Both the position numbers and the translations under genes were made by a program. Positions 14,302 through 59,606 of a stretch of DNA of 64,000 nt are shown here, piece by piece. How positions within the stretch are numbered: the first letter of the stretch is position 1; every line of letters begins with the position of its first letter. The notes beneath the pieces were generated by a model, which saw only the letters and a program-made list of their open reading frames with translations, had not been told where the DNA came from and made no database searches. Source of the DNA: Hymenobacter sp. DG25A. Lineage in GTDB: Bacteria; Bacteroidota; Bacteroidia; Cytophagales; Hymenobacteraceae. The stretch covers positions 1,116,001 through 1,180,000 of the forward strand of contig NZ_CP012623.1 in NCBI RefSeq assembly GCF_001280305.1, given 5' to 3'.

Positions 14302-14412
14302 ATGAGCAGCAAATGGATTTTACGTCTCACGCTCACGGCGCTGGCCCTGCTGGTTACCACCGACCGCAAAAGGCCCAATCCGGTGGTGCCGCCACCGCCT
14401 CCCCGGCCTTAA
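14302..14412 (+). CDS. Small proline-rich secreted or membrane peptide
   Basis: 36-residue ORF starting 20 bases after the previous gene. It has a hydrophobic stretch (residues 8-18, LRLTLTALALLV) and then a proline-rich tail (NPVVPPPPPRP). It ends just before the terminator, so it could be the last gene of the operon. Whether it is translated is uncertain. Confidence 0.4.
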   Translation: MSSKWILRLTLTALALLVTTDRKRPNPVVPPPPPRP

Positions 14413-14453
14413 ATAAAAAAGCCCGCTACAGTAGTAGCGGGCTTTTTTATTTA
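14411..14453. terminator. Bidirectional intrinsic terminator
   Basis: Hairpin AGCCCGCTAC / GTAGCGGGCT with A-run and T-run on opposite sides, between the plus-strand M48 unit and the minus-strand alpha/beta hydrolase. Confidence 0.85.
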
Positions 14454-14466
14454 AGGCCGGTTCAAG

Positions 14467-15174: not shown

Positions 15175-16560
15175 TTATTTGGTCACCTCAGTAGCCAGGT
15201 TTACCAGGTCCAGCCCATCAAACGTGCCCGAGGACATCATGAGCAGGTTAGCATTCTGCCAGTCCTGCTGGTGCAGGAACTCAGCCAGCTGCTTGCTGTC
15301 GGTAAACACGCGTAGGTCGGGGCGCTGGAAGGCGGCTTGCACGGCTTCCGGAGGCAGGGCGGGCAGGCGCTTGTGCTCTAGTACCTGGGGGTTGAAATAC
15401 ACCACGGCCACATCCGGCGTATCAAAGGTGTGGGCGTACTGGGGCAGGAAGGCGGGGTTGAGGGAGCTGAAGGTGTGCAGCTCCAAGCAGGCCACCAACT
15501 TGCGCTTGGGGTACTGCTTTTTAAACGCGCCGGCCGTGGCCTTCAGTTTGCTGGGAGCGTGGGCAAAGTCCTTGTATACCACGGAATCCGTGCCTTCGCG
15601 CACCAGCTCCAGGCGGCGGGCCGCGCCTTTAAACGTGGCCAGCGCCTCGTAAAAATCCTTGCCTTTGATGCCCAGCTGCTTGCACACCTCTTTGGCGGCC
15701 GAGATGTTGCGCAGGTTGTGCTCGCCAAACACTTGTATCGGCACTTCCTCGTCTTTTTTGGTGATGAGGAAGGTTTTGCCCTTCCGGATAACATGCTCGT
15801 GCGGGCCGTAGCCGATGTAGGTCACATCGGGGCTGGATGGCACCGTCACCAGCTGCACCTGCTCATCGTCGCGGTCATAGATGAGCGTGCCGGCCTTGGG
15901 CGTCATGTCGGCAAAAATCCGGAACTGCTCGCGGTAGAATTCCTCGGTTGGAAACACGTTGATGTGGTCCCAGCTGATGCCGGAAATTACGCCAATGTGG
16001 TGTTGGTACAGGTGGAATTTCGGGCGCCGGTCGATGGGGGAGGACAGGTACTCGTCACCTTCAATAATAATGATAGGTGCGTCTTCCGTCAGCTGCACCA
16101 TCAGATCAAAGCCTTCCAGCTGGGCGCCCACGGCATAGTCAAACTTGCGGTTATGGTAGCGCAGCACGTGCAGAATGAGCGAGGTGATGCTGGTTTTGCC
16201 GTGCGAGCCGCCAATGACGATGCGCTGCTTGTCGCGGGAGGCTTCGTAGATAAACTCCGGGAAGGAATACACCCGCAGGCCCAGCTCCTGGGCGCGCAGC
16301 AGCTCGGGGTTGTCGGCACGGGCGTGCATGCCCACAATCACGGCATCCAGGTCAGCTGTTATCTTTTCCGGATACCAGCCTTCCTGGGCGGGCAGCAGGC
16401 CGGCGGCGGCCAGGCGGCTTTTGGCGGGCTCAAAGATTTCGTCGTCGGAGCCGGTCACCTGTGCGCCACGGCGGTGCAGTGCCAGGGCCAGGTTGTGCAT
16501 AATGCTGCCGCCTACGGCAATAAGGTGAAGACGCTGAAGCGAAGCGGGCGTAGTAGCCAT
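15175..16560 (-). CDS. UDP-N-acetylmuramate ligase of the Mpl type (peptidoglycan recycling)
   Basis: 461 residues from the ATG at 16560. Mur-ligase architecture: N-terminal Rossmann part, ATP-binding GGSHGKTSIT (117-126), metal-binding EGDEYLSS and the HINVFPT region, and a C-terminal domain. The wording GGSIMHNLAL near the start and the absence of a typical MurC N-terminus suit Mpl (UDP-MurNAc:L-Ala-gamma-D-Glu-mDAP ligase), which reuses cell wall tripeptide; assignment as MurC is possible. The gene is followed by the hydrolase remnant, 10 bases away. Confidence 0.85.
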   Translation of the reverse strand: MATTPASLQRLHLIAVGGSIMHNLALALHRRGAQVTGSDDEIFEPAKSRLAAAGLLPAQEGWYPEKITADLDAVIVGMHARADNPELLRAQELGLRVYSFPEFIYEASRDKQRIVIGGSHGKTSITSLILHVLRYHNRKFDYAVGAQLEGFDLMVQLTEDAPIIIIEGDEYLSSPIDRRPKFHLYQHHIGVISGISWDHINVFPTEEFYREQFRIFADMTPKAGTLIYDRDDEQVQLVTVPSSPDVTYIGYGPHEHVIRKGKTFLITKKDEEVPIQVFGEHNLRNISAAKEVCKQLGIKGKDFYEALATFKGAARRLELVREGTDSVVYKDFAHAPSKLKATAGAFKKQYPKRKLVACLELHTFSSLNPAFLPQYAHTFDTPDVAVVYFNPQVLEHKRLPALPPEAVQAAFQRPDLRVFTDSKQLAEFLHQQDWQNANLLMMSSGTFDGLDLVNLATEVTK

Positions 16561-16718
16561 GCAGAAAGGAATTGCGAAACAATCGGCAGAAAGCCAGGGC
16601 AAAGGTAAGCACAACTACCATTGTACCGCCCGAAAATGGCCTCTACGCGGGGCATGCTTCGGACAAAGTACCAAAAAGAAACTATTCTTTCGGCCCGTAA
16701 TTTCTACGGCTCAGCTAG

Positions 16719-16726
16719 TAGCTTTG
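16719..16726 (+). promoter_or_regulatory. Candidate -7 promoter box of dnaB
   Basis: TAGCTTTG matches the Bacteroidota -7 consensus TAnnTTTG, 36 bases before the dnaB start. A TTG-type -33 is not at the expected 19-21-base spacing, so confidence is modest. Confidence 0.4.
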
Positions 16727-16761
16727 TACCCCCCTTTGGGTTAGATTTGCTGAGTACGACG

Positions 16762-18378
16762 ATGAATGACCAAATGGATGACCGCCTGAAAATATCTGCC
16801 TCCCGCGCCAAAGCAGCCTGGAACTCGCGTCCGGCCCAGTTGCCCGCGGGTGGACCTTCAGGTAAGTTGCCGCCCCAGGCCCTGGAGCTGGAAGCCGCTG
16901 TGCTGGGGGCTCTTATGCTGGAAAAAGATGCCCTGACCACCGTTATTGATATTCTGAAAACCCAGAGTTTCTATAAGGAAGGGCACCAGCGCATTTTCAA
17001 GGCCATCCTCAATCTGTTCGATAAATCGGAGCCGATTGATATTCTCACCGTCACGCACGAGCTGCGCGAGATGGGCGAGCTGGAAGCAGCCGGGGGCGCG
17101 CACTACGTGGCCAACCTGACCTTTAAAGTCAACTCGGCGGCCAACATTGAGTACCACGCCCGCATCATCACGGAAAATGCCATTAAGCGCGAGCTGATTG
17201 GTATTGCCAGCACCATTCAGCGCGACGCCTTCGAGGATACCACCGACGTGTTTAACCTGCTGGATAGCACCGAGCAGGCCCTGTTTGAAGTATCGGAGTC
17301 GAACATTCGGAAGAACTTCGACGACATGCGCAGCCTGATGGGTAAGGCCATCAAAGAGCTGGAAGAAAAGAAAAACCAGAAAGACGGCCTCACCGGCGTG
17401 CCCAGCGGCTTTACGGCCTTGGACCGGGTAACCTCCGGCTGGCAGCCCTCTGACCTGGTGATTATTGCCGCCCGCCCGGGTATGGGTAAAACGGCTTTCG
17501 TGGTGTCGGCCATGCGCAACGCGGCCGTGGAGTTTAAGAAGCCGGTGGCCATTTTCTCGCTGGAAATGTCCTCGCTGCAGTTGGTAAATCGTCTGATTTC
17601 GGCGGAAGCAGAGCTGGATTCAGAGAAAATCAAGAAAGGCAACCTGGCCGACTACGAGTGGGCCCAGCTCAACCACAAGATTTCGGCACTGTCCTCGGCG
17701 CCCATCTTTATTGATGATACGCCGGGCCTGAGCATCCGGGAGCTGCGCACCAAGTGCCGCCGCCTCAAAGCCCACCACGACATTCAAATGATCATCATTG
17801 ACTATCTGCAGTTGATGAGCGGCAACACGGATGGCAAGGCAATGGGCAACCGCGAACAGGAAATTGCCTCTATTTCCCGGGCCCTGAAAGGCATTGCCAA
17901 AGAGCTGAACGTGCCGGTGCTGGCCCTGTCGCAGCTGTCCCGTTCCGTGGAAACCCGCGGCGGCGACAAGAAGCCGCAGCTGAGTGACCTTCGTGAATCC
18001 GGCTCCATCGAGCAGGACGCTGACATGGTTATCTTCCTGTACCGCCCCGAGTACTATAAGATTACGGAGGACGAAATGGGCAACCCCACCCAGGGCACCG
18101 GCGAGGTAATTATTGCCAAGCATCGGAACGGCTCCCTGGAAACCGTGCAGCTTAAGTTCATCGGCAAGTTCACCAAGTTTGCCGACCTCGACGGAGCCGG
18201 CGGCTTCGGGCTGGATGGTGCCAGCTACAACACCGGCGCTTTCCCCAGCAGCAACTTCGACGACGAGCCCAGCTTCACGCCCAATACCATTCGGCTGGGT
18301 AGCAAAATTAATGATGGCGGTCCGGGCCCGGTGCCGTTCCCGAAGAGCAATTTCGGGAATGAAGACCCGCCGTTTTAG
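16762..18378 (+). CDS. dnaB: Replicative DNA helicase DnaB
   Basis: 538 residues from the ATG at 16762. N-terminal DnaB domain (about 32-135, with PPQALELEAAVLGALM), then the RecA-like motor: Walker A RPGMGKT at about 237-243, Walker B IIIDYLQLM, and the DLRESGSIEQDADM motif. It unwinds DNA at the replication fork as a hexamer. The C-terminal 65 or so residues are a Gly/Pro/Asn-rich tail ending NEDPPF, which resembles the acidic-Pro-Phe tip of SSB. The last 143 bases of the gene are repeated at 24091-24224. Confidence 0.95.
   Translation: MNDQMDDRLKISASRAKAAWNSRPAQLPAGGPSGKLPPQALELEAAVLGALMLEKDALTTVIDILKTQSFYKEGHQRIFKAILNLFDKSEPIDILTVTHELREMGELEAAGGAHYVANLTFKVNSAANIEYHARIITENAIKRELIGIASTIQRDAFEDTTDVFNLLDSTEQALFEVSESNIRKNFDDMRSLMGKAIKELEEKKNQKDGLTGVPSGFTALDRVTSGWQPSDLVIIAARPGMGKTAFVVSAMRNAAVEFKKPVAIFSLEMSSLQLVNRLISAEAELDSEKIKKGNLADYEWAQLNHKISALSSAPIFIDDTPGLSIRELRTKCRRLKAHHDIQMIIIDYLQLMSGNTDGKAMGNREQEIASISRALKGIAKELNVPVLALSQLSRSVETRGGDKKPQLSDLRESGSIEQDADMVIFLYRPEYYKITEDEMGNPTQGTGEVIIAKHRNGSLETVQLKFIGKFTKFADLDGAGGFGLDGASYNTGAFPSSNFDDEPSFTPNTIRLGSKINDGGPGPVPFPKSNFGNEDPPF
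18236..18378 (+). repeat. dnaB 3'-end direct repeat, copy within dnaB
   Basis: The last 143 bases of dnaB match 24091-24224 in the same orientation. Up to a short variable linker the two copies differ at only a few positions, all third-codon synonymous (C to T type). The linker is GPGPVP here and SS in the other copy, so the frame is kept. See the finding on the inserted segment. Confidence 0.85.
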
Positions 18379-18389
18379 GACCAACAAAA

Positions 18390-18432
18390 TCAAAAAAAAT
18401 AGCCTGCTGGAATCAGCGGGCTATTTTTTTGT
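18390..18432 (+). terminator. Intrinsic terminator of dnaB
   Basis: Hairpin AGCCTGCTG / CAGCGGGCT with a following T-run. A homologous hairpin (AGCCCGCTG / CAGCGGGCT) follows the second copy of the dnaB end at 24236-24273. Confidence 0.8.
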
Positions 18433-18601
18433 GCATGGAATGCCTAGTTGCTACGGAATCAGCCGTTTCGATAGGGTAGGTTGATCTGAGTCGGCCTGCG
18501 GGCTAGGTCTAAATGGCTAGAAGTGAGCTTAGGAATGTAATTAGGCTGATATTACTCTATGCAGTGATTTAAAATATTATTTAATTATACATGAATCAAT
18601 A

Positions 18602-18609
18602 TAATTTTG
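18602..18609 (+). promoter_or_regulatory. Candidate -7 box of the molybdenum hydroxylase operon
   Basis: TAATTTTG fits TAnnTTTG and lies in an AT-rich stretch (18520-18640) 120 bases before the first gene. No clear -33 is seen, so this is tentative. The rest of the 18379-18728 gap holds only the dnaB terminator and AT-rich sequence. Confidence 0.3.
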
Positions 18610-18728
18610 CAGTGATTAACTAATTATTAGTTCATAACAAGCTTCGTGCTTCCAGCGTAAGGAAAAGCCATGTGCCTGCCGGAATGGTTTGGCCACTCAT
18701 TTCTATTCCTTCACCCTTTTCTTTTGCT

Positions 18729-19256
18729 ATGCACGAGCAACCTACCCATGCCGCTACTGGCGCGGTGGCCGCACCACCGCCCGTCGGCCCCGTTCGCCTC
18801 ATCATTAACGGCACTGCCCACGAGGTGGAGCTGGCGCCCTGGACTACCCTGCTCGATGCCCTGCGTGAGTATATGCAGCTTACGGGCACTAAAAAAGGTT
18901 GCGACCACGGCCAGTGCGGGGCCTGCACGGTACTCGTGAACGGCAAGCGCATCAATAGCTGCCTGACACTGGCTGTGATGCATGAAGGCGACGACATCAC
19001 TACTATAGAAGGCTTAGGCACCGTGGAGGCCCTGCACCCATTGCAACAGGCCTTCGTCGACCACGATGCTTTCCAGTGTGGCTACTGCACGCCTGGTCAG
19101 ATCTGCTCGGCCCAGGGCCTCCTCAACGAGGGCAAGGCCCACACCGAGGACGAAATCCGCGAGATGATGAGCGGCAACCTCTGTCGCTGCGGTGCTTACG
19201 TAGGCATTCTGGCCGCCGTAAAGGAAGTTGTTGATAAAGGGGAGAAGGTGAAATAG
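18729..19256 (+). CDS. Molybdenum hydroxylase 2Fe-2S subunit (PaoA-like)
   Basis: 175 residues from the ATG at 18729 (an in-frame ATG at 18672 would add 19). It has the plant-ferredoxin-like cluster GCDHGQCGACTVLVNG with the fourth Cys in NSC, then the second cluster FQCGYCTPGQ and LCRCGAY. It passes electrons between the molybdopterin and FAD subunits encoded next. No Tat signal RR motif is visible, unlike E. coli PaoA. Confidence 0.93.
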   Translation: MHEQPTHAATGAVAAPPPVGPVRLIINGTAHEVELAPWTTLLDALREYMQLTGTKKGCDHGQCGACTVLVNGKRINSCLTLAVMHEGDDITTIEGLGTVEALHPLQQAFVDHDAFQCGYCTPGQICSAQGLLNEGKAHTEDEIREMMSGNLCRCGAYVGILAAVKEVVDKGEKVK

Positions 19257-19359
19257 TGAAATGGCGATTTGATGACCGGCAGTGCAAATAACACCGCCGG
19301 TCCAAGCCTCAACTGCCGCTTTATCAGCCCTTGTAACGCACTATTTCACCTATCACCAC

Positions 19360-20382
19360 ATGAACTCATTTACATTTCACCGCGCAACGGACATTGACGA
19401 CGCTGTGCGGAATAATACTAGCCATGCGGGGGCGGCCTACATTGGCGGGGGCACCAACCTCATCGATTTGATGAAGGAAAACGTGATGCGCCCCGCTCAC
19501 CTCGTGAGTGTGGCTAAGTTGCCCCTGGCCGCCATTGAAGTTCTGCCCGACGGCGGGCTGCGCCTGGGTGCCATGGCCACCAACGCCGATACGGCCTGGA
19601 ACGAGGAAGTGAAAAACCGCTACCCGCTGCTGAATCAGGCCATTCTGGCCGGGGCCTCGCCCCAGCTGCGTAACGCGGCCACCAACGGCGGCAACCTCAT
19701 GCAGCGCACCCGTTGCCTGTATTTCTACGATCTGGCAACGCCCTGCAATAAGCGTGAGCCCGGCACGGGGTGCTCGGCCATTGGGGGCTTCAACCGCATT
19801 CACGCCATTCTGGGGGCCAGTGAGCACTGCATTGCCACGCACCCCTCGGATATGTGCGTGGCGCTGGCGGCCCTGGCCCCCACGGTGCGCGTGAGTGGGC
19901 CGGAGGGGGAGCGGAGCATTGCTTTTAACGACTTTCACCGCCTGCCCGGCGACCAGCCTGACAAGGACAATACCCTAAAGCCCGGGGAACTGATTCTCAG
20001 CCTTGACCTACCCAAAAAAGGCTTCAGCAAAAACTTCAGCTACCTCAAGCTGCGCGACCGGCAGAGCTACGCCTTTGCCCTGATTTCTGTAGCGGCGGGC
20101 CTTGAGCTGGACGGCAACACCATTACCGATGCCCGCCTGGCGCTGGGTGGTGTGGCCCACAAACCCTGGCGCGACCAGGCTGCCGAAAAGCTGCTCATTG
20201 GGCAGCCGGCTACCGCGGAAACCTTTGCCCGCGTGGCCGCCAAAGTGGTGGAAAACGCCCAGGGCCAGGGTGCCAATGACTTCAAGATTGAGTTGGCCCG
20301 CCGCGCCATTGTGCGGGCGCTCAAGCAGGCTGCCGAAGGCTCGCAAAAGGCAGCCGACGTATTCCAGAACTCCAATCCCTAA
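19360..20382 (+). CDS. Molybdenum hydroxylase FAD subunit (PaoB-like)
   Basis: 340 residues from the ATG at 19360. FAD-binding segments AYIGGGTNLIDLM and NAATNGGNLMQRT are present. An insertion holds four Cys (TRCLYF, TPCNKREPG, TGCSA, EHCIATHPSDM) that match the extra 4Fe-4S site of PaoB-type subunits. The gene overlaps nothing but is tightly spaced with the next (4 bases). Together the three subunits oxidise aldehydes or purines in the xanthine dehydrogenase family. Confidence 0.93.
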   Translation: MNSFTFHRATDIDDAVRNNTSHAGAAYIGGGTNLIDLMKENVMRPAHLVSVAKLPLAAIEVLPDGGLRLGAMATNADTAWNEEVKNRYPLLNQAILAGASPQLRNAATNGGNLMQRTRCLYFYDLATPCNKREPGTGCSAIGGFNRIHAILGASEHCIATHPSDMCVALAALAPTVRVSGPEGERSIAFNDFHRLPGDQPDKDNTLKPGELILSLDLPKKGFSKNFSYLKLRDRQSYAFALISVAAGLELDGNTITDARLALGGVAHKPWRDQAAEKLLIGQPATAETFARVAAKVVENAQGQGANDFKIELARRAIVRALKQAAEGSQKAADVFQNSNP

Positions 20383-20386
20383 CCGT

Positions 20387-22618
20387 ATGAGCACGACTAA
20401 CTATATCGGCAAAGCCACCAGCCGCGTCGATGGGCCGGCCAAGGTGACGGGCGCGGCCACGTATTCCGCTGAATTTCATTTGCCCAACCTGGCCTACGGC
20501 TACGTGGTAAGCAGCCCCATTGCCAAGGGAAAAATCACCAAAATTCACGCCGATGAAGTGCTGGCATTGCCCGGCGTCATTCAGGTGTTTTCACACGAAA
20601 ACGTGCCTTCGGTGGCTTGGCTCGATAAAAAGCACCAGGACCAGGTAGCACCTGGCGGTTCGCCGTTCCGGGCGTTGCAGGAGCCGGAAATTCTATTCAG
20701 TCAGCAGCCGGTGGCCTTGATAGTGGCCGAGAACTTTGAGCTGGCCCGCTATGCGGCTTCGGTGCTGCGCATTGAGTATGAAGTAGAGCAGCACGAAACA
20801 AACCTCGAAACCCAGCGCGCCAAGGGCTACGAGCCCGGCAAGGGCAAAACCGGCTTCCAGCCGCCGCCCGACCCACGCGGCAAACCCGATGAAGCCTGGG
20901 CTGAGGCTGAACACCGCACGGAGGCTGAGTATGTGCACGGCACCCAGCACCACAACCCCATGGAGCTATTTTCCACCACCGCGGAGTGGCGCGGCGAAGG
21001 CCAGATAACGGCCTACGATAAAACCCAGGGCGTTTTTAACGTGAAGAAATACCTCACGGGCGTGTTTGGTCTGAAGAAGGACGACGTGCGGGTAGTGAAT
21101 GAGTTTCTGGGGGGCGGTTTTGGCGCGGGGCTGCGACCCCAGTACTCGGTGTACCTGGCGGTACTGGCTGCCCTGGAACTGCGCCGCTCGGTGCGCCTCA
21201 CGCTCACGCGTCAGCAAATGTTCAGCTTCGGGCATCGGCCGCACGCCCTGCAAACCGTGAAGCTCGCTACCAACCCCGATGGCTCTTTGGCCGCTTTGCA
21301 CCACCACGCTCTTCACGAAACCTCTCAGTTTGAGGATTACACCGAGAACGTAGTGAACTGGAGCGGCATGCTCTACCAGTGCGAGAACGTGAAGCTGGGC
21401 TATGAGCTGGCCAAGCTTGATGTGTACACGCCCCTGGATATGCGCGCCCCCGGCGCGGCTTCCGGCAGCATTGCCCTGGAAATAGCCATGGACGAAATGG
21501 CCTACGCCGCCGGACTCGACCCCCTGGAGCTGCGCCTACGCAACTACGCCGACCGCGACCAGAACGCCGACAAGCCCTTTTCCAGCAAGAAGCTGCGCGA
21601 CTGCTACCACCAGGGCGCGGCCAAGTTTGGCTGGGAGAAGCGCACCCCGGAACCCCGCTCTATGCGCGAGGGCAACATGCTGGTGGGCTGGGGCATGGGC
21701 GGTGGTGTGTGGGATGCCACCCAGCAAAAAGCCGCCGCCGCCGCCAGCATCACAGCCGATGGCCACCTTACGGTCCGCAGCGGCTCGGGCGAAAACGGCG
21801 CGGGCACCTACACCATTATGACGCAGATTGCGGCCGAAACCCTGGGCCTGCCTCTGGAAGCCGTTACCTACCAGCTCGGCGACACCGACCAGCCCGAGGC
21901 CCCGCTCCAGGGCGGCTCCTGGACGGCCGCCTCCGTGGGCACTGCCATTCAGAGCGTGTGCCAGGACCTGGCCGGTAAAATTCTGAAGATGGCCCAGAAG
22001 CAGCCGGATTCTCCACTCAAGGATGCCAAATTTGAGGACGTGGAGTTTGTGAACGGCCAGATTAGGCTGCGCACCAACCACGGCCAGGCCGTGGTGCTGC
22101 GCGATGTGCTGCAAACCAGCGGCGAAGCCAAAATTGAGGCCGATGGCTCCACTATGCCCAACATGGCCAAGCAGAGCCAATACTCCCTGCACGCCCACAA
22201 CGCCGTGTTTGTGGAGGTGAAGGTAGACGAGGACCTTGGCACCGTGCACGTAACGCGGGTGGTAAATGCCATTGCCGCCGGCCGCATCCTTAACCTGAAA
22301 ACCGCCCGCTCCCAGGTGCTGGGCTCGGTGGTGTGGGGAATTGGGGCTGCCCTGATGGAGGAAACCGTGATGGACCATAAGTTCGGCCGCTACATGAACC
22401 ACAACTTCGCCGAGTACCACGTGCCCGTCAACGCTGACATTCACGACATTGAAGTGCTATTCGTGGACGAGGAAGACGACATTGTGAACCCGCTGGGCGT
22501 GAAGGGCATTGGCGAGGTAGGCATGCTGGGCGTGGCTGCCGCCGTGGCCAACGCCATCTACCACGCCACCGGCAAGCGCGTCCGCGAACTGCCGATTACG
22601 ATTGACAAGCTGCTGTAA
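20387..22618 (+). CDS. Molybdenum hydroxylase molybdopterin subunit (PaoC-like)
   Basis: 743 residues from the ATG at 20387. Family marks are TSRVDGPAKVTGAATY at the start, the GGGFGAGL loop for the cofactor, RAPGAASGS, GENGAGTYTI and the catalytic Glu in KGIGEVGM near the end. It binds molybdopterin cytosine dinucleotide-type cofactor and is the catalytic subunit. The operon has no XdhC/PaoD maturation gene in view; the substrate is probably an aldehyde, but xanthine cannot be excluded. Confidence 0.94.
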   Translation: MSTTNYIGKATSRVDGPAKVTGAATYSAEFHLPNLAYGYVVSSPIAKGKITKIHADEVLALPGVIQVFSHENVPSVAWLDKKHQDQVAPGGSPFRALQEPEILFSQQPVALIVAENFELARYAASVLRIEYEVEQHETNLETQRAKGYEPGKGKTGFQPPPDPRGKPDEAWAEAEHRTEAEYVHGTQHHNPMELFSTTAEWRGEGQITAYDKTQGVFNVKKYLTGVFGLKKDDVRVVNEFLGGGFGAGLRPQYSVYLAVLAALELRRSVRLTLTRQQMFSFGHRPHALQTVKLATNPDGSLAALHHHALHETSQFEDYTENVVNWSGMLYQCENVKLGYELAKLDVYTPLDMRAPGAASGSIALEIAMDEMAYAAGLDPLELRLRNYADRDQNADKPFSSKKLRDCYHQGAAKFGWEKRTPEPRSMREGNMLVGWGMGGGVWDATQQKAAAAASITADGHLTVRSGSGENGAGTYTIMTQIAAETLGLPLEAVTYQLGDTDQPEAPLQGGSWTAASVGTAIQSVCQDLAGKILKMAQKQPDSPLKDAKFEDVEFVNGQIRLRTNHGQAVVLRDVLQTSGEAKIEADGSTMPNMAKQSQYSLHAHNAVFVEVKVDEDLGTVHVTRVVNAIAAGRILNLKTARSQVLGSVVWGIGAALMEETVMDHKFGRYMNHNFAEYHVPVNADIHDIEVLFVDEEDDIVNPLGVKGIGEVGMLGVAAAVANAIYHATGKRVRELPITIDKLL

Positions 22619-22635
22619 CCTCTGCGGCCCGCCGT

Positions 22636-22681
22636 AACGCAAAGCGCCCCGAAACCTCACGGTTTCGGGGCGCTTTGCGTT
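22636..22681. terminator. Strong intrinsic hairpin after the molybdenum hydroxylase operon
   Basis: Near-perfect stem of about 20 bases (GCAAAGCGCCCCGAAACC and its complement) with a 4-base loop, 17 bases after the stop of the last subunit. There is no T-run worth the name, but a stem this long would be an effective stop. Confidence 0.65.
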
Positions 22682-22693
22682 ATTGTCTCTCTA

Positions 22694-22867
22694 TTAAAGA
22701 TTCGTAAAAAGGTAATTTCAGAAAATTACATCGTCGTGCTCGAACAGATCTTCTACTTCTCACAGTAATTCGAAGAGTTTGAAAACATCATCGACATTTA
22801 TGCTCATTAACTTATTAAATACGGCGTCCTTATATACTTTGAATTCGACCTTTTCGAATTTTTTGTT
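22694..22867 (-). pseudogene. AT-rich decayed gene remnant
   Basis: On the minus strand the frame from 22867 to 22694 reads like protein: NKKFEKVEFKVYKDAVFNKL, then MSINVDDVFKLFELL, stop, EVEDLFEHDDVIF, stop, NYLFTNL. Both internal stops are TGA, each explainable by one change from TGG (Trp). Acidic and aromatic residues and AT-rich codons contrast with the neighbours. It looks like the end of a foreign gene degraded in place, with no start visible. No family recognised; chance open frame is possible. Confidence 0.35.
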
Positions 22868-22903
22868 TTACCACTAATCGGCCACTGTACTGTGCGGGTG
22901 AAA

Positions 22904-23821
22904 TTAGTTGCGCGGGCTATTGGCTTTTATTTTATCGCCAATGAAATGCATGGCTTGGGCATAGGTTTCAATGCCGTGACCAACGTTGGGGAAAACGACA
23001 GTTTCCCGTAAATACTTCAGGTGCTTTTTGCCGTTCTCAAAGGAATTTTTCGTGGGAAATAACAGGTCTTTGTCACCCAGCAACAGGTATGTCTCGGCCT
23101 TTACCTCGTCCAGCTGCTGCTTCATGTAATACGGTTTCTGCGTCTTGTCCTGATAGCGGCTAATAGCAAAAACCTCGTAGTCGATGAGCATTTGCTCCGA
23201 AAATGCCGATAGTTGATGCGTTGGCTTAGCAAAAATGGCCCTGTCAAGAAACGTAGAAACGTTCCGCGAGGATGGGCTCACTAGGGGCAGTATATTGTAG
23301 TACAGGTTTTTAGGCGATATGGAAAAAGGCTGCAAACAGCCAGGGTTCAGCAAAAAGGCGGATTGAATCATTTCCGGGTTTGTAATGCCCAGCTTCATGC
23401 AAATTAACCCGCCGAAGGAGGCACCGGCAACGTAGGCTTTGGCAAGGCCGAGTTTGCGCATGACCTCCGCTGCCCATGTGCCATAATCCAGGGACTTAAT
23501 GTTGGGAGTAGCTCCGCTGCTCAGGTTAGGAAGGCCGTTGGTCTCCACCAGGAAAATTTTCATTCTGTGACGGAGGTTGTCGAGGCCTCGGTCAAAATCC
23601 CAGATGAGGGAAGTAGTTCTGGCACCCGGGAAAATCACCAGCGCATCGGCAAGATCTTCGTTTGTGTGCAGTCCCCACACGTGGGTGGTGCCCAGTGCGG
23701 TTTCAAGGGCATAGCGCTCATATTTTCTGCCGTTGTGCGCTTCCAGCCTGTCCACCCAGTTTTCAAAATAGGAACGGTCGGCTGATTCGTCCTTAAAAGA
23801 AGACCTGCTCTGAATATGCAT
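22904..23821 (-). CDS. Alpha/beta hydrolase
   Basis: 305 residues. The nucleophile elbow GASFGG holds Ser135, LLGDKDLL fits the acid position and VGHGIE the catalytic His. The oxyanion-hole region is unusual (VIFPGARTTS). Substrate unknown. It is inside the segment bounded by dnaB 3' repeats, on the opposite strand to the molybdenum hydroxylase operon. A palindrome lies 170 bases upstream of its start. Confidence 0.85.
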   Translation of the reverse strand: MHIQSRSSFKDESADRSYFENWVDRLEAHNGRKYERYALETALGTTHVWGLHTNEDLADALVIFPGARTTSLIWDFDRGLDNLRHRMKIFLVETNGLPNLSSGATPNIKSLDYGTWAAEVMRKLGLAKAYVAGASFGGLICMKLGITNPEMIQSAFLLNPGCLQPFSISPKNLYYNILPLVSPSSRNVSTFLDRAIFAKPTHQLSAFSEQMLIDYEVFAISRYQDKTQKPYYMKQQLDEVKAETYLLLGDKDLLFPTKNSFENGKKHLKYLRETVVFPNVGHGIETYAQAMHFIGDKIKANSPRN

Positions 23822-23989
23822 AAATGAAAGCTTAAAAGCAGTTGATGCTTATAAAATCGGCCGCAAGGTATAGCAGGAGCGAGAATAATGCAGCACCCTT
23901 TCTTGCCCGGGGCACAGCAAAACACAGGGCCTGCGCGGTTTATGAACTAACCATATTCCTATGCTGCGGTAAACCAATGCGGCAGAGTG

Positions 23990-24006
23990 GCCGAAACGGT
24001 TTCGGC
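23990..24006. promoter_or_regulatory. Palindrome resembling a LacI-type operator
   Basis: GCCGAAAC-G-GTTTCGGC, a perfect 8-bp inverted repeat with one central base, located 169 bases upstream of the alpha/beta hydrolase start. The shape resembles LacI-family operators with AAACG cores. No regulator gene is near it. Confidence 0.3.
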
Positions 24007-24074
24007 AGCAAAGGGCACATATCAGCCGACTGTGCTTAAACTGTGTTATGGACTTGTGAGCGAAATTAACGGGC

Positions 24075-24224
24075 ATGGAAGTTACCCGTTGCGCTTTCCC
24101 CAGCAGCAACTTCGACGACGAGCCCAGTTTCACGCCTAATACCATTCGGCTGGGTAGTAAAATTAATGATGGCGGGTCTTCATTCCCGAAAAGTAATTTC
24201 GGGAATGAAGACCCGCCGTTTTAA
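24075..24224 (+). pseudogene. Displaced dnaB 3' end with a 49-residue ORF
   Basis: An ORF of 49 codons (MEVTRCAF then the DnaB tail) opens at an ATG at 24075 and ends at TAA 24224. From 24091 it matches the last 143 bases of dnaB, with synonymous changes and a shorter linker (SS instead of GPGPVP) and the same tip, FGNEDPPF. It is followed by a terminator homologous to dnaB's. It has no helicase motor, so it is a remnant; expression as a tail-only peptide is not excluded. Confidence 0.8.
24091..24224 (+). repeat. dnaB 3'-end direct repeat, displaced copy
   Basis: 134 bases in direct orientation to 18236-18378. Differences from that copy are third-position changes (AGC/AGT, CCC/CCT, AAG/AAA), TAA instead of TAG and a 9-base shorter linker. 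The pattern of divergence under coding constraint means one copy came from another, related dnaB rather than drifting after a local duplication. Confidence 0.85.
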
Positions 24225-24235
24225 GAATCAGTTAA

Positions 24236-24273
24236 TAAAAAAAGCCCGCTGGAAGCAGCGGGCTTTTTTTATT
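24236..24273. terminator. Terminator paired with the dnaB fragment
   Basis: Hairpin AGCCCGCTGG / CAGCGGGCT with T-run, homologous to 18390-18432. It shows that the duplicated unit included the region just past the stop codon. The rest of 24225-24422 has nothing recognisable. Confidence 0.75.
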
Positions 24274-24422
24274 GGCGCGGCAGTAGATGGTAATGGAGGC
24301 TGGTATGTTGACCTACGAACTGGATACAGCAGGTTTTCTTCCAGTTTCCAGCTGATAGTTGTGAAACACTAAAGCAAGAATGAAAATGAATTAATTAAAA
24401 CAAAAGAAATGAACCGAATAAA

Positions 24423-25280
24423 TTATTTTTTGAAATAAAAGTGTCTGTTCATCTGTGATTTTTTATTATTTATATAAAAATTAGATTCTGAAATTGTTTT
24501 ATTTGAATTATAAGTATTTACTGATGTAAAACCAAATTTGTTAGAAGCAGAGTAATTTGTAAAGCTATTCGAATTGTTTATATTTTTTATGATTTGATTG
24601 TCATTGTTGTAAAATATTTCGCTTATTTTCTTCCTTCCGTCAGAATTTTCAAGATAAGTTATTTTTTTATTTAATAATTTATCGTAGTCGTAAGTATAAG
24701 TATAAATATTTTCTCTACTTATGTCAAACGATTCCGATTTTGATAATTTTCCATCATTGTTGTAATAATACTTGCTTGAGGTATAAAATTCATTATTATT
24801 TATCTTCTTCTGGAGTTGAATTAATTGATTTTTAGCATTGTATGTTTTATGATCTATTATTAACCTGGTTGTATCTTCATTGTAATCATACATATAAGTT
24901 TCATTTCCTTGATCATCATATCCATGTTCTTGAATGAATATTAATTTTAGTGTTTCTTTTTTTATAATTTCTTTTTTGGGTTTCTCTAAATTATTATAAG
25001 TTATTTGATATTTGGTTGTGTATTCCTGATGGGTTTTTTTATCAATTGATTTCTCTTCAATGACATCACCTGAAGGGTTATAGTAATAAACATTTACTAA
25101 AGTAGAGTCTTTTATTCCTTTTCTATAGAGTGTATAAGAGTAAACTTCTTCTTTAATAATCTTGTTGCTTTTTATTATTTCCTTTTCATTCCTTGTAAAT
25201 GAAAAAATTGTATTATTGGTTTGTGAAAAAGTTTCATAAATTATAAAGAATAAAAAAATACAAAAAACAAGGCGTTTCAT
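24423..25280 (-). CDS. AT-rich secreted YD-repeat-like protein
   Basis: 285 residues; a signal-like N-terminus (FCIFLFFIIYETFSQ) precedes many YYNNDG/YDYD/YNNxG-type strands (YYYNNDGKLSKSES, TYTYDYDKL, IFYNNDNQI), the look of RHS/YD-repeat beta wrapping. The gene is strongly AT-rich and uses codons unlike neighbours, so it was probably acquired. RHS-type toxins usually have a C-terminal effector; none is visible here. Unknown role; immunity or surface protein is possible. On the minus strand TATTTTTG at 25361-25368 is a candidate -7 box. Confidence 0.7.
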   Translation of the reverse strand: MKRLVFCIFLFFIIYETFSQTNNTIFSFTRNEKEIIKSNKIIKEEVYSYTLYRKGIKDSTLVNVYYYNPSGDVIEEKSIDKKTHQEYTTKYQITYNNLEKPKKEIIKKETLKLIFIQEHGYDDQGNETYMYDYNEDTTRLIIDHKTYNAKNQLIQLQKKINNNEFYTSSKYYYNNDGKLSKSESFDISRENIYTYTYDYDKLLNKKITYLENSDGRKKISEIFYNNDNQIIKNINNSNSFTNYSASNKFGFTSVNTYNSNKTISESNFYINNKKSQMNRHFYFKK

Positions 25281-25483
25281 TTAATTTTGTTTTAAGGGTT
25301 TTGGCTTAGATATAAGTAAAAGTAAGAAACAATACCTGCACGCCCATTAATTTGTCTTGACAAAAATAATGTCGTTGCTTGTATCGTCGAAACTGCCTAT
25401 GCCTTATAGCTAAGTAATGTGGCACGTTGCGGGCAGAATGTGCGAAACTAAAAAGCCAGCTTTCAGGCATCGTTAGTGCTTAT

Positions 25484-26677
25484 TTACCGCTCCACAAGCA
25501 TAACGGGTGTTGCTGGTTCTTCCCAGTTACGCAGCAAACCCACCAACCCCAGCGCAGGCCCAACAGCCAGCGTTAGAAACAGATAAGTAGGGTCGATATG
25601 TTGGGATAACCAACTCGTGAACTGAATGCTGGCAATAGTCAGAGCAAAGCCGAGGCAGTTCACAATAGTAAGAGAAGTGCCGCGCGAGGCTTCCGGGGCA
25701 TTCTGCGCTACCAGCGTGGAAAACAGCGGCGAATCGGCTACCACCACCATACCCCAGAACACCAGAAACACAACCAGCAGCGTAGGTGAGCTGCCCCGCA
25801 GCATCAGCGGCGACACCAGGCAGCATACCCCCGATAACGCCAGCGCGGTCGTGGCCACCGGGCGGGCACCTACCACCTGGGAGAGCAGCCCGCTGCCTAT
25901 ACAGGCCAGGCTTCCTGCGGCAATAATGAAAAAGGAGAGCATGGGCACGGGAAACCCCGCCGTGGGATGCGCGCGGTTGTAGGTAGCCAGGAGGATGGGC
26001 ACAAAGGCCCAGAAGGTATATAGCTCCCACATGTGGCCGAAGTAGCCAAAGGCCGCCGCCCGGAACCGGGGCCGCCGAAACCCGTCCAGAAAGGCCGTGA
26101 GCTGCAGATGCTGGCCGACTTTGCGAAAGGGGCCATCGGGCACGAGCAAAACCAGCGCTACCCCACCCAACACCGCCAGCGCCGAGGTGGCCAGCGTAAC
26201 ATAATGCCACGGCAGCTGGCCCGCAAGACCTTTGAGCAGGTGCGGGAAGGCCGTGCCCAGCACCAGCGCCCCCACCAGATACCCCAACGACTTCCCCAGC
26301 CCGGCCTGGTAATAATCGGAGGCTATTTTCATGCCCACCGGGTAAATGCCGGCCAGGAAAAACCCGGTCAGGAACCGGAAGGCCAGCAGGCCCCCTGTTC
26401 CGATGCCCCCGAGGTTGATGCCTAGGTTGCACACGGCCGCCACCAGGGCGCTGACAAAGAACACCCGGGAAGGGGAGAAGCGGTCGGCAATGGTAAGCAC
26501 CGCAAAGGTGAGCGTCCCGGTAATAAAGCCCAGCTGCACAGCGCTGGTCAGGTAGGCTACAAAGCCGGGCGGCAGGTGAAACTGAGCGGCTATATCCGGC
26601 GCAATGGCATTGCCGGCAAACCAGAGCGAGGTACAGAAAAACTGCGCCAGAACAATAACCGGTAGAATTCTCTGCAT
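25484..26677 (-). CDS. MFS transporter
   Basis: 397 residues from the ATG at 26677 (QRILPVIVLAQFFCTSLWFA). Twelve hydrophobic segments in two groups of six and an ADRFSPSRVF loop between TM2 and TM3 mark the major facilitator superfamily. Substrate is unknown. It is divergently transcribed from the DODA-type dioxygenase. Confidence 0.88.
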   Translation of the reverse strand: MQRILPVIVLAQFFCTSLWFAGNAIAPDIAAQFHLPPGFVAYLTSAVQLGFITGTLTFAVLTIADRFSPSRVFFVSALVAAVCNLGINLGGIGTGGLLAFRFLTGFFLAGIYPVGMKIASDYYQAGLGKSLGYLVGALVLGTAFPHLLKGLAGQLPWHYVTLATSALAVLGGVALVLLVPDGPFRKVGQHLQLTAFLDGFRRPRFRAAAFGYFGHMWELYTFWAFVPILLATYNRAHPTAGFPVPMLSFFIIAAGSLACIGSGLLSQVVGARPVATTALALSGVCCLVSPLMLRGSSPTLLVVFLVFWGMVVVADSPLFSTLVAQNAPEASRGTSLTIVNCLGFALTIASIQFTSWLSQHIDPTYLFLTLAVGPALGLVGLLRNWEEPATPVMLVER

Positions 26678-26695
26678 AAGGAAATGGCTGAGCAA

Positions 26696-26741
26696 CTCCG
26701 GTGTCCACGCAGGCGCCTCTCTGGGCCTGCGCCTACCGGAG
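26696..26741. other. Imperfect hairpin upstream of the MFS gene
   Basis: Two nested stems: CTCCGGT / ACCGGAG and CGCAGG / CCTGCG. On the minus strand this lies about 20 bases before the MFS start codon, so it may affect translation or be an operator. Low confidence. Confidence 0.3.
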
Positions 26742-26917
26742 AGGCAAAGTACCCAAATCCCGGCTGGCGGCATCTGCCCGGTTGATCATCCTGCGTAGCT
26801 TTCTTTCAACAGGTAAGGGACCGGTAAAGCCAGGGCGACGTATTATTGTTAGTATTCCAATCAGGAACCTGCTGCCCACTAGGAATTTTGCTGGCGGTGC
26901 GGCTTTTCTTCTCGGCT

Positions 26918-27751
26918 ATGAACTCCTTGCAAGACCTCCATAAAACTGCCTCTTCCTTCCAGCAAACAACCAAAATGCCAGTGCTCTTCGTGGGGCACGG
27001 CTCGCCGATGAATGCGCTGGCGGATAATGCCTTCACGAAGATGCTTCAGCAGCTGGGCCAGGACATGCGCAACCGGCAGCCGCCCCGCGCCATTCTGGTG
27101 GTATCGGCGCACTGGCTCACGCGCGGCTCCTTTGTTACCATGAATGAGCGGCCCGAAACCATTCATGATTTTGGCGGCTTTCCGCAGGAGCTGTTTGACA
27201 TGCAGTACCCCGCGCCCGGCGCGCCTGATGTAGCCCGGGAAGTGCTGGCGGCCCTGCCCGATGCGCAACCATCCGACGAATGGGGCCTCGACCACGGATC
27301 CTGGACCATTCTGCACCACCTGTTTCCGGAGGCTGATATTCCGGTGTTCCAGCTCAGCATCGACTATTATCAACCCCTCACGTTTCACGCGGAGCTTGCC
27401 CGGCAGCTGCAGTTTCTGCGCCGGCGCGGCGTGCTCATTATCGGCAGCGGCAACATTGTGCACAACCTGCGCCAGAGCATGCCCAAATTCATGGCCGATG
27501 ATGCCACACCCTATGCCTGGGCCGGGGAGTTTGATGCATGGGCGAAAGCTAAAATCGACCAGCGCGACCTGCACGCCCTGGCCCATTACCAGCAGGCCGG
27601 CGCCAGCGGTATGCTGGCCGTACCCACGCCGGACCACTACATCCCTATGCTCTACAGCCTGGCCCTGGCCGAACCGGACGAAGACATCCGGCACGCCTTC
27701 GAGGAGGTAAGCTACGGTGGCATGAGCATGCGCACCTTTGTAGTAGGGTAG
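26918..27751 (+). CDS. 4,5-DOPA dioxygenase extradiol-like (LigB family)
   Basis: 277 residues from the ATG at 26918. LigB-family features are GHGSPMNAL, SAHWLTRG, DHGSWTILHHLFPEAD and GSGNIVHNL, matching the YgiD/DODA group of ring-cleaving extradiol dioxygenases, which use a non-heme metal. An in-frame ATG at 26975 (PVLFVGHGSP) is also possible as the true start. Substrate is unknown. Confidence 0.88.
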   Translation: MNSLQDLHKTASSFQQTTKMPVLFVGHGSPMNALADNAFTKMLQQLGQDMRNRQPPRAILVVSAHWLTRGSFVTMNERPETIHDFGGFPQELFDMQYPAPGAPDVAREVLAALPDAQPSDEWGLDHGSWTILHHLFPEADIPVFQLSIDYYQPLTFHAELARQLQFLRRRGVLIIGSGNIVHNLRQSMPKFMADDATPYAWAGEFDAWAKAKIDQRDLHALAHYQQAGASGMLAVPTPDHYIPMLYSLALAEPDEDIRHAFEEVSYGGMSMRTFVVG

Positions 27752-49347: not shown

Positions 49348-50535
49348 CTATTTCCAGAAGGAGGGTCGGGTGGTGGTGCCGCGCACCCGGCAGTCGGCGC
49401 ACTCCACGGGGTAAGAGGTATAGCCAGTTACGCCTCCCCCGGCATTATATAGAGGCTTGATTGGGAGGTGCTTGCCGCCTCCAAACTGAGCATCCAATGT
49501 TTCTTTAAAAGGGATATAAGGAATGGGTACAATTGTATCGGGGGCGCCACAGTCCTCATTCCCAGTCTTGAAATTCCAGGCGCCCGGCAACTGATCTGCA
49601 GAAATAAAGATACGTTTTTGAGTCACGGAGCCGACGCCGACAAAGCCGAGCACAGGCTCCTGCGGCTGGTTGAGGTTGCGCACATTGCCCGTGGACTGGG
49701 AAGGCAGCGGGTCAAACAAGGAGCCAATGGTTTCCGTGTTCTTCTTCAAAGCTTCCCAGTAGGCGTACTCCTCGGCTCCCATGGTGTACTGGCGCACCAG
49801 TACGCTGTACTTATAGCGCAAACGGGTATCGCCGGCAGGAAACTCAAGGAGGGGAAACTCCGTCACCCGGTCCTCACTCAAACGTTTGGTGCTCGTCAGC
49901 TTGATGGTCGGACTATGTACCGTTTGCCAGCAGCGATAAATCTCCTCAGTGCGGGGCTCCATCTGCCCATTTACATATTGTAGCCTGGACTGCGCAAACG
50001 AAGTAAACTCCCAGGTTTCGGTGTAGTCCCAGCGGTAATAGCGGGAGTTGCCGGTGGCATCGAAGGTGTTGGCGTAGAGCTCCAGGCCGCGCGGCACCAC
50101 TTTCCAGGTCAAAGCATCAATGGGCGGGCTGGTCTTGACCGGCAGATAAGCCGAAGCATACTGGCCCAGCAGCTGCTGGCGGCTGTCGCGGGTGCGGAAG
50201 AACAGGCGGTACTGAGTACCCGGATTTAAGATCAGGCTGTCGGAGACATAGGTACCACTCTTTACCTCACGCAATAGGTACTCCTCCCCGCTGCCTTCTC
50301 CCTGAATCAGAACCTGGGCTTTATCCACGGTCAGCGGCCCGGCCGTGGAGGCCAGGTCATAAGTGCGGGAGAGCTTGATGGTAGTGCGTCCATTGCTGTT
50401 GATAAAGCCATCTACCACCAGGGCTTTGGTGGCCTGCACCGGCACTTCCGGCTCAAACGGCTCGATGCAACCGCTCAACCCCAGCAGCGCCCCGCTTAAA
50501 ACGATGAAACAAAAGCGCAGAAGAGACCGTGGCAT
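49348..50535 (-). CDS. DUF4249 lipoprotein, copy 1
   Basis: 395 residues; lipobox GLSGC (Cys22). Member of DUF4249, a Bacteroidota family of unknown function commonly next to TonB-dependent receptors. The 330-base core is almost identical to copies 2 and 3; the N-terminal half is nearly identical to copy 3, while the region after residue 305 is unique (NFKTGNEDCGAPDTIV). All end ..SYPVECADCRVRG...W. Last gene of the operon. Confidence 0.88.
   Translation of the reverse strand: MPRSLLRFCFIVLSGALLGLSGCIEPFEPEVPVQATKALVVDGFINSNGRTTIKLSRTYDLASTAGPLTVDKAQVLIQGEGSGEEYLLREVKSGTYVSDSLILNPGTQYRLFFRTRDSRQQLLGQYASAYLPVKTSPPIDALTWKVVPRGLELYANTFDATGNSRYYRWDYTETWEFTSFAQSRLQYVNGQMEPRTEEIYRCWQTVHSPTIKLTSTKRLSEDRVTEFPLLEFPAGDTRLRYKYSVLVRQYTMGAEEYAYWEALKKNTETIGSLFDPLPSQSTGNVRNLNQPQEPVLGFVGVGSVTQKRIFISADQLPGAWNFKTGNEDCGAPDTIVPIPYIPFKETLDAQFGGGKHLPIKPLYNAGGGVTGYTSYPVECADCRVRGTTTRPSFWK
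49604..49933 (-). repeat. DUF4249 core repeat, copy 1
   Basis: 330-base block nearly identical to 50831-51160 and 54544-54873 (fewer than ten differences in sum, concentrated at the block ends), encoding CWQTVHSP to KRIFI. The central 240 bases are identical. Confidence 0.85.
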
Positions 50536-50595: not shown

Positions 50596-51768
50596 TTAAT
50601 CCCAGAAAGGGGGACGAACCTTAGAGCCACGCACCCGGCAGTCGGCGCACTCCACGGGGTAAGACCTAAAGATTAGACCGTACTCTTCGTGGTCATACAG
50701 ATACATCGGAATGTTTTCGCCACTGCCGAACATTTCTTCCAGCGAAACAGGCGGAGCTACATCTTCGGGCAGGTACCCACAGCTTTCATACCCAGAGGTA
50801 AATGACCACTGGGGTAATTCCCGCGCTACGATAAAGATTCGTTTTTGGGTCACGGAGCCGACGCCGACAAAGCCGAGCACGGGCTCCTGCGGCTGGTTGA
50901 GGTTGCGCACATTGCCCGTGGACTGGGAAGGCAGCGGGTCAAACAAGGAGCCAATGGTTTCCGTGTTCTTCTTCAAAGCTTCCCAGTAGGCGTACTCCTC
51001 GGCTCCCATGGTGTACTGGCGCACCAGTACGCTGTACTTATAGCGCAAACGGGTATCGCCGGCAGGAAACTCAAGGAGGGGAAACTCCGTCACCCGGTCC
51101 TCGCTCAAACGTTTGGTGCTCGTCAGCTTAATAGTCGGGCTATGCACCGTCTGCCAGCAGGTATAAATATCTTCCTCGGCCCGCCGCCGCCGCATCTTGT
51201 GGTTTTCGTACACGAAATAAGATTGCCCGGCAGAGGTGAATTCCCAGGTTTCCGTGTAGTCCCAGCGGTAGTAAATGGACTGGCCGGTCGCATCGAAAGT
51301 GTTGGCGTAGAGCTCTAGGCCGCGGGGTACCACCTTCCAAGTCAGGGCCTCAATCGGCGGGCTGGTCTTGACAGCTTCGTAGCTGGAAGCATATTGCCCC
51401 GTGAACTGCTTGCGGCTATTCCTGGTGCGGAAGAACAGGCGGTACTGAGTAGCTGGGTTCAACACCAGGCTATCGGAGACATAGGTGCCGAGCTTCACTT
51501 CGCGCAATAAGTACTCCTCCCCGCTGCCTTCTCCCTGAATCAGAACCTGGGCTTTGTCTTCCGTAACTGGTCCGTTGGTGGAGGCCAGGTCATAAGTATG
51601 GGAGAGCTTGATGGTGGTGCGCCCGTTGCTATTAATGAAGCCATCAACCACCAGGGCCTTGGAAGCCTGTGGCTTTACTTCCGGCTCGAACGGATCAATA
51701 CACCCGTTCAAACCCAGCAGCAAACAATAACAGGCTATAATCGGCAAATAAAGTCTTGGATATTGCAC
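50596..51768 (-). CDS. DUF4249 lipoprotein, copy 2
   Basis: 390 residues, lipobox LNGC. Starts with GTG at 51768, directly after an in-frame TAA, so no earlier start is possible. The N-terminal half diverges from copies 1 and 3 (QFTGQYASSYEAV instead of QLLGQYASAYLPV); the core block is shared; the C-terminal tail is unique (FTSGYESCGYLPEDV). A gap of 32 bases follows the macroglobulin-like gene upstream. Confidence 0.88.
   Translation of the reverse strand: MQYPRLYLPIIACYCLLLGLNGCIDPFEPEVKPQASKALVVDGFINSNGRTTIKLSHTYDLASTNGPVTEDKAQVLIQGEGSGEEYLLREVKLGTYVSDSLVLNPATQYRLFFRTRNSRKQFTGQYASSYEAVKTSPPIEALTWKVVPRGLELYANTFDATGQSIYYRWDYTETWEFTSAGQSYFVYENHKMRRRRAEEDIYTCWQTVHSPTIKLTSTKRLSEDRVTEFPLLEFPAGDTRLRYKYSVLVRQYTMGAEEYAYWEALKKNTETIGSLFDPLPSQSTGNVRNLNQPQEPVLGFVGVGSVTQKRIFIVARELPQWSFTSGYESCGYLPEDVAPPVSLEEMFGSGENIPMYLYDHEEYGLIFRSYPVECADCRVRGSKVRPPFWD
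50831..51160 (-). repeat. DUF4249 core repeat, copy 2
   Basis: 330-base block; see copy 1. Confidence 0.85.
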
Positions 51769-59301: not shown

Positions 59302-59315
59302 AAAACGACGGGAAG

Positions 59316-59387
59316 TAGTCCGTAGGGGAATCGAACCCCTGTTGGTAGAATGAAAATCTACTGTCCTAACCCCTAGACGAACGGACC
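59316..59387 (-). tRNA. tRNA-Glu (UUC), copy 1
   Basis: 72 nt on the minus strand: acceptor GGTCCGT / ACGGACT, anticodon stem GTAGA / TCTAC with loop TTTTCAT (anticodon TTC), T arm GGGGTTCGATTCCCC. No encoded CCA. Identical to copy 2 over its whole length. Confidence 0.95.
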
Positions 59388-59509: not shown

Positions 59510-59534
59510 AACCAATGCCAAAGCGGAAGGCGAG

Positions 59535-59606
59535 TAGTCCGTAGGGGAATCGAACCCCTGTTGGTAGAATGAAAATCTACTGTCCTAACCCCTAGACGAA
59601 CGGACC
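59535..59606 (-). tRNA. tRNA-Glu (UUC), copy 2
   Basis: 72 nt, identical to copy 1; first in transcription order. Its promoter is visible just upstream. Confidence 0.95.

Follow-up and report, generated by a model that had tools for sequence, protein, structure and literature searches.

We analyzed a stretch of 64,000 nucleotides (hereafter, the window) from Hymenobacter sp. DG25A (contig NZ_CP012623.1, positions 1,116,001 to 1,180,000), in which the 3' end of dnaB, the gene for the replicative helicase, is present twice. The source genome (G000) comprises 3.78 Mb in one contig. The whole dnaB gene (16762..18378, + strand; Pfam DnaB and DnaB_C) is followed by an imperfect hairpin, recognized as a terminator by alignment with the dnaB terminators of relatives (T1, 18393..18430, +), by a molybdenum hydroxylase operon and by an alpha/beta hydrolase gene. 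Beyond the latter, what remains of an IS5-family insertion sequence (IS), its truncated left end (24037..24090, +), runs directly into a second copy of the dnaB end (copy 2, 24091..24224, +) with its own terminator (T2, 24234..24273, +), and the flank continues with an AT-rich orphan gene, an MFS transporter and a dioxygenase. As argued below, the block between the two dnaB ends was probably acquired by homology-facilitated illegitimate recombination (HFIR), with dnaB as the homologous anchor on the left and an IS/dnaB microhomology on the right. HFIR is a known, rare route, and this locus would be a new example of it with an unusually readable scar.

The last 143 bp of dnaB (copy 1, 18236-18378, +) recur in direct orientation as copy 2 with a related terminator after each, as the initial annotation had described, and both the sequence alignment and the genome search agree on this. 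The first 37 bp of the copies are identical and are followed by single C>T differences and one 9-base shortening, while similarity continues past the copies across the two terminators (83% over 193 bp). A search of the same genome with the dnaB end returned both copies, plus an inverted match of 21 bp within copy 2. An assembly error, a caveat raised from the outset, is unlikely given that the copies are only 87% identical and the genome is a single contig. Among the 60 other genus genomes, no second dnaB tail at a distance from dnaB was found in the matches listed (the best seven candidate places per genome at most, with no match in G028), save for a weak 36-bp match in G006. This distribution bears on the explanation by a site-specific integrative element that used the dnaB 3' end as its attachment site and has since lost its recombinase. 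The layout is like that of elements that restore the end of the gene into which they integrate. However, none of the seven scanned window proteins is a recombinase (consistent with the initial statement that no integrase is seen, and with homologous recombination at dnaB), the gaps between them in the insert are below 360 bp, there is no tRNA nearby, and the junction is accounted for by the microhomology between IS5 and dnaB. Since no recombinase is present and the junction is otherwise explained, we held site-specific integration to be very improbable.

The right-hand junction can be read to the base. The IS5-family piece consists of the TA target, the terminal inverted repeat and the first transposase codons, with the start codon at 24075. 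Matches to bases 24034-24095 are scattered over 10 of the 119 other genus genomes searched (at most three per genome), and there is no other match to this stretch within G000. In G003 and G130 the element is intact, with a length of ~859 bp and inverted ends, and the window matches its left end; the other inverted end matches the same place in the window. The transposase of the intact G003 element scores 198 bits against NF033580 (cut-off 110) and carries Pfam DUF4096 and DDE_Tnp_1. Window positions 24037-24121 are 84% identical to bases 1-85 of that element, the last part being already dnaB-like, and the remaining ~770 bp of the IS were not found in the window beyond weak matches at chance level. 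Judged by its sequence, the piece 24037-24090 is thus a stump and not a working IS. Base by base, the window follows the IS up to 24088, neither sequence at 24089-24090, both at 24091-24096, and dnaB from 24097, so that the switch falls at the common GCGCTT (six bases exact). This hexamer opens a longer near-match (24091..24104, +), in which the IS reads GCGCTTACCCCAGC and dnaB reads GCGCTTTCCCCAGC, the window carrying the dnaB base at 24097. When 120 bp of the G130 IS end are compared with the last 300 bp of dnaB, no 14-mer pair matches better than these 13 of 14 shared bases, and shuffling the dnaB stretch 2000 times gave a match as good in 11 cases, with the word length of 14 having been picked after the match was known. 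Transposition is not expected to stop within the transposase gene at a dnaB-like word, whereas microhomology recombination can.

The same junction weighs on the mechanism first proposed for this locus, namely a Campbell-type single crossover with a circular molecule carrying a dnaB end. The final order would be the same, and the components predicted by that proposal (a recombinant dnaB, an insert and a displaced native end) stand. Moreover, incoming DNA ligated to circles and its integration by single crossover have been reported (PMC3240628). Nevertheless, the right joint, in which IS5 is fused to dnaB, is left unexplained by it: the donor circle would need a pre-existing IS-dnaB fusion, and end-to-end ligation gives no reason to expect the fusion where microhomology between the two sequences is best. 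We consider the Campbell-type event improbable.

The state of the locus before the insertion can be approached through the closest relatives. At dnaB these are, among the 60 other genus genomes, G015 (93%) and G041 (92%), and rpoB concurs (96.6% and 95.7% to G000, respectively). The rpoB-region tree supports the clade of the three genomes with 100/100, with a weak internal order (85/63), and no closer relative was found among the 119 other genus genomes. The last 72 residues of DnaB are the same in the window, G015 and G041. Both relatives have a single dnaB end and lack the operon orthologue, for which only a 44-45% paralogue is present. The initial annotation had suggested a comparison of the locus, asking whether loci in which one dnaB end adjoins the flank lack the cargo, and this is the case in both. 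Past dnaB, G041 carries a short AT-rich orphan, the MFS gene and the dioxygenase, and G015 a different AT-rich orphan followed by the dioxygenase, the MFS gene being absent there. In the window, copy 2 is followed by a third AT-rich orphan (24423..25280, −; 23% GC), the MFS transporter (25484..26773, −; assigned by Pfam) and the LigB/4,5-DOPA dioxygenase (26921..27751, +). Given the single dnaB end, the flank of AT-rich orphan and MFS and/or dioxygenase, and the absence of the operon in both relatives, copy 2 together with T2 looks like the displaced native dnaB end. The AT-rich gene, which had been counted as part of the cargo, therefore belongs to the flank, as it lies past copy 2. Each of the three sister species has its own AT-rich orphan directly past the dnaB terminator, which marks this spot as variable; the orphan of the window has 12 relatives at 42-54% and one weak match outside the genus, and no protein family was found for it in family-model searches.

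The terminators were compared in the same manner. T1 scores 29.5 with each of the G015 and G041 dnaB terminators when aligned across loci, while none of the other 42 loci exceeds 21, and the terminator alignment scores are 37.5 for T2-G015, 29 for T1-T2 and 26 for T1-G015, making the G015 dnaB terminator the nearest to T2. These values, in turn, speak to a local duplication of the dnaB end within one genome followed by drift. Two bases (GAG, ATT) are common to both copies and differ in G015 and G041, which speaks for such a duplication. Yet the G015 terminator is resembled more by T2 than by T1, the flank past copy 2 is of the kind that follows dnaB in the relatives, and the IS stump at the joint is not predicted, which together make a duplication of this kind highly unlikely.

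HFIR combines these observations. In the scenario that we reconstruct, in which the linearity of the donor, the direction, the order of the steps and the date are put conditionally, the donor would have been a linear DNA with the order dnaB (3' part), T1, molybdenum hydroxylase operon, alpha/beta hydrolase and IS5 element, and the recipient chromosome would have had the order dnaB, T2, AT-rich orphan, MFS and dioxygenase. On the left, the donor would have paired with the recipient dnaB through ordinary homology, and on the right, where there was no homology, the start of the IS5 transposase would have joined the recipient dnaB tail over the 14-base near-match. Such an event would leave dnaB whole but recombinant, followed by the inserted genes, by 54 bp of the IS and by the native dnaB end, displaced together with T2. 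Extended homology is found at one end, where the left dnaB matches members of the clade along its whole length, as does its terminator type, and a microhomology joint is found at the other, at the IS5-dnaB switch. HFIR has been described in Streptococcus pneumoniae, Acinetobacter baylyi, Pseudomonas stutzeri and E. coli conjugation, where foreign DNA is likewise gained through a homology anchor and a microhomology joint (PMC3240628). According to that source, the junctions mostly show 3-10 bp of microhomology, the process is rare in the laboratory, and its occurrence in genomes has been suspected from pairs of insertions and deletions. The present case differs in being a natural fossil, in its longer near-match (13 of 14), in having the start of an IS transposase as one partner, and in the position of the joint within the anchor gene's own tail, which duplicated the gene end, versus the ~1 kb deleted in HFIR. 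A second parallel is offered by the orphaned 3' ends of the type VI secretion/Rhs loci of Vibrio cholerae, where an insertion anchored in a conserved gene displaces the old 3' sequence and an HFIR-like mechanism has been proposed (PMC5361080); the present locus, by contrast, has a housekeeping gene as its anchor and metabolic genes as its cargo, and its illegitimate joint can be resolved to single bases, a near-match between a transposon and the anchor gene having closed the other side. In the literature searched, we found no paper on dnaB as an integration target, none on HFIR with an insertion sequence plus microhomology or on additive integration, and nothing on genomic islands of Hymenobacter that looks related. 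If the reading by HFIR is right, genes may enter beside an essential gene with no dedicated enzyme and without breaking that gene.

The inserted operon encodes a 2Fe-2S subunit (18729..19256, +; PaoA-like, Pfam Fer2/Fer2_2, with PaoA as the best NCBIfam model, below its cut-off), a FAD subunit (19360..20382, +; Pfam FAD_binding_5 and CO_deh_flav_C, read from 19282) and a large Mo-binding subunit (20387..22618, +; PaoC-like, Pfam MoCoBD_1/2, with 5y6q and PaoC 5g5h as solved relatives). As the large subunit scores 614 bits against the PaoC model, under the curated cut-off of 1180, it is by sequence a relative of PaoC and not an assigned PaoC. A perfect 22-bp hairpin past the operon (22635..22682, +) is terminator-like. 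The large subunit is found at 60% identity or more in 54 of the 60 other genus genomes, those without it being G010, G012, G015, G036, G041 and G053. In 16 of the 60, the operon lies on the same strand and at most 25 kb downstream of dnaB (G002, G003, G006, G007, G009, G013, G017, G018, G023, G031, G035, G039, G054, G055, G056 and G057), a count to be read knowing that many of the remaining genomes are drafts with dnaB and the operon on separate contigs, and that G028 has no dnaB match. The operon is also near dnaB in 6 of 14 further genomes, picked for their dnaB, and in 20 of 44 other mapped dnaB loci, 12 of these with the MFS and/or dioxygenase genes beyond. As the latter set is biased, with 11 loci having been fetched for a known nearby operon, the genus count is given over the 60 genomes. 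The address beside dnaB is thus recurrent in the genus and not universal. The description of the block as foreign metabolic cargo was accordingly abandoned for the address of the operon and kept for the alpha/beta hydrolase.

The large subunit of the operon is 91% identical to that of G002, 90% to G137 and 89% to H. piscis, and in the operon tree the window sequence groups with H. piscis (99/98) and with G002 and G137 (100/100). A two-tree approximately unbiased (AU) test rejects the monophyly of the other 25 genomes of the wider group with these four left out (p-AU 1.9e-16), for a group that was named after a first tree and with G155 dropped from the second operon tree for its long branch. 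In turn, the rpoB region rejects a position of G000/G015/G041 inside the corresponding group, to the extent that its members were sampled (p-AU 0.003). Taken together, these trees make a sideways transfer of the operon likely. An AU test on 12 rows (p 0.001) was set aside as evidence, given that the tested group included G002, whose placement differs between the trees (see below). The molybdenum hydroxylase of G002 (locus L073) is far from those of its rpoB neighbors G055 and G006 and groups with that of G137; it probably represents a separate replacement at the same address.

The alpha/beta hydrolase (22904..23821, −) has its best named relatives at 66-70%, mostly in other Bacteroidota. It is probably a newcomer, since the 120 best of 1388 matches include relatives at ~70% from Saprospiraceae and other groups, while nothing above 51% turned up in a search of 36 other genus genomes. 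A 272-amino acid hydrolase that is 99% identical is encoded on a contig of 2,013 bp (P0002), which hints at a second strain of the species. For the leader between T1 and the operon (18431-18735), no source was found, as there is no match in the 119 other genus genomes, and no Rfam family reaches its gathering score in window positions 16000-27000.

Copy 2 contains a perfect 21-bp inverted repeat with a 5-base loop (24171..24217, +). The linker GPGPVPFP of copy 1 is also present in ten other loci, including G015 and G041, and therefore the linker of copy 2 is the derived one. The 3' arm of the hairpin, TTTCGGGAATGAAGACCCGCC, is identical in copy 1, copy 2 and G015 and is one base off in G041, whereas the new 5' arm in copy 2, GGCGGGTCTTCATTCCCGAAA, is its exact complement. 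A single template switch during replication, before or after the insertion, explains jointly the 9-base loss, the adjacent substitutions and the change AAG>AAA. In quasipalindrome template switches, a similar rewriting turns one arm of an imperfect hairpin into an exact complement of its partner (PMC7202029, PMC8794818), although here it would be a single natural event in a present or former coding sequence. The linker change had been taken as a sign of coding constraint, an interpretation that we reject, as we read the change as the product of one such switch; more generally, differences between repeats that appear coding-like can stem from one template switch. Outside the hairpin change there are four C>T differences, and these are all synonymous, as first stated. 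As proof of constraint they fall short, the chance of four synonymous differences being ~0.013 for any transition and 0.057 for C>T only, (21/43)^4, and they are at most a weak hint that copy 2 was still coding during the divergence. The loop change AGC>AGT of copy 2 is also seen in G041. The reading frame is kept as well: from the IS5 transposase start at 24075 it passes through the dnaB tail to the TAA at 24222-24224, forming an in-frame fusion of 49 residues (MEVTRC- plus the DnaB C-terminal tail), and none of the differences of copy 2 disrupts the frame or, outside the shortened linker, alters a residue. With frame and residues kept, the fusion could conceivably be expressed as a micro-protein that mimics the DnaB tail and competes for one of its partners, a possibility that we regard as very doubtful.

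Several points weigh against the entry of the block by HFIR. No donor genome with the order dnaB, T1, operon, hydrolase and IS was found, and the windowed identity of dnaB to G015 and G041 reveals no step, hence the left crossover is not placed. As T1 and the DnaB tail are typical of the clade, the donor has to be a near relative outside the sampled genomes, one in which the operon groups with those of G002, G137 and H. piscis, and two steps are needed. HFIR usually deletes about as much as is gained (PMC3240628), and no deletion matching the size of the insert is seen here; compared with G041, none of the flank genes is lost, except for the differing orphan gene. The G041 terminator scores 25 with T2 and 27.5 with T1; as T2 is no closer to it, this terminator does not decide. 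Also, G002 itself is misplaced between the trees, with rpoB putting it with G055 and G006, so that the direction of the operon transfer is not fixed. Finally, most of these observations also agree with an older event and subsequent loss. Here, the junction would predate the split of G000, G015 and G041, and the latter two would have lost operon, hydrolase and stump by recombination between the dnaB ends. After a loop-out of this kind, one dnaB with a terminator similar to T2 would remain, which is the arrangement of G015, and the distances from copy 1 to copy 2 and from copy 1 to G015 both amount to four substitutions, with the hairpin change excluded. The recurrence of the operon at the dnaB address in the genus speaks slightly for this alternative as well. 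On the other side, two losses are required versus one gain, and a copy 2 that had long been noncoding should hold non-synonymous changes, whereas its four differences are all synonymous, a weak argument in view of the chance of ~0.01-0.06. We consider such an older event rather unlikely.

Other features of the window and of the dnaB loci were recorded in passing. The dnaB gene of G041 (L120:15660-18443) is interrupted in frame by a segment with homing-endonuclease and intein domains (Hom_end_hint, Hom_end, LAGLIDADG_3) at the point that corresponds to window position 17488/17489. The dnaB of the window is without it, and among the mapped loci many other dnaB open reading frames (ORFs) of the genus encode ~880 amino acids. 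Upstream of dnaB, at 14403-14460, a perfect 27-bp inverted repeat with a 4-base loop, the longest found in the window, lies between convergent ORFs. At 49348-50535, 50596-51768 and 54289-55479 (all −) there are three close paralogues with 84-92% DNA identity over ~900 bp, adjoining a large receptor-like ORF, and two tRNA-Glu (ttc) genes are arranged in tandem at 59315-59387 and 59534-59606.

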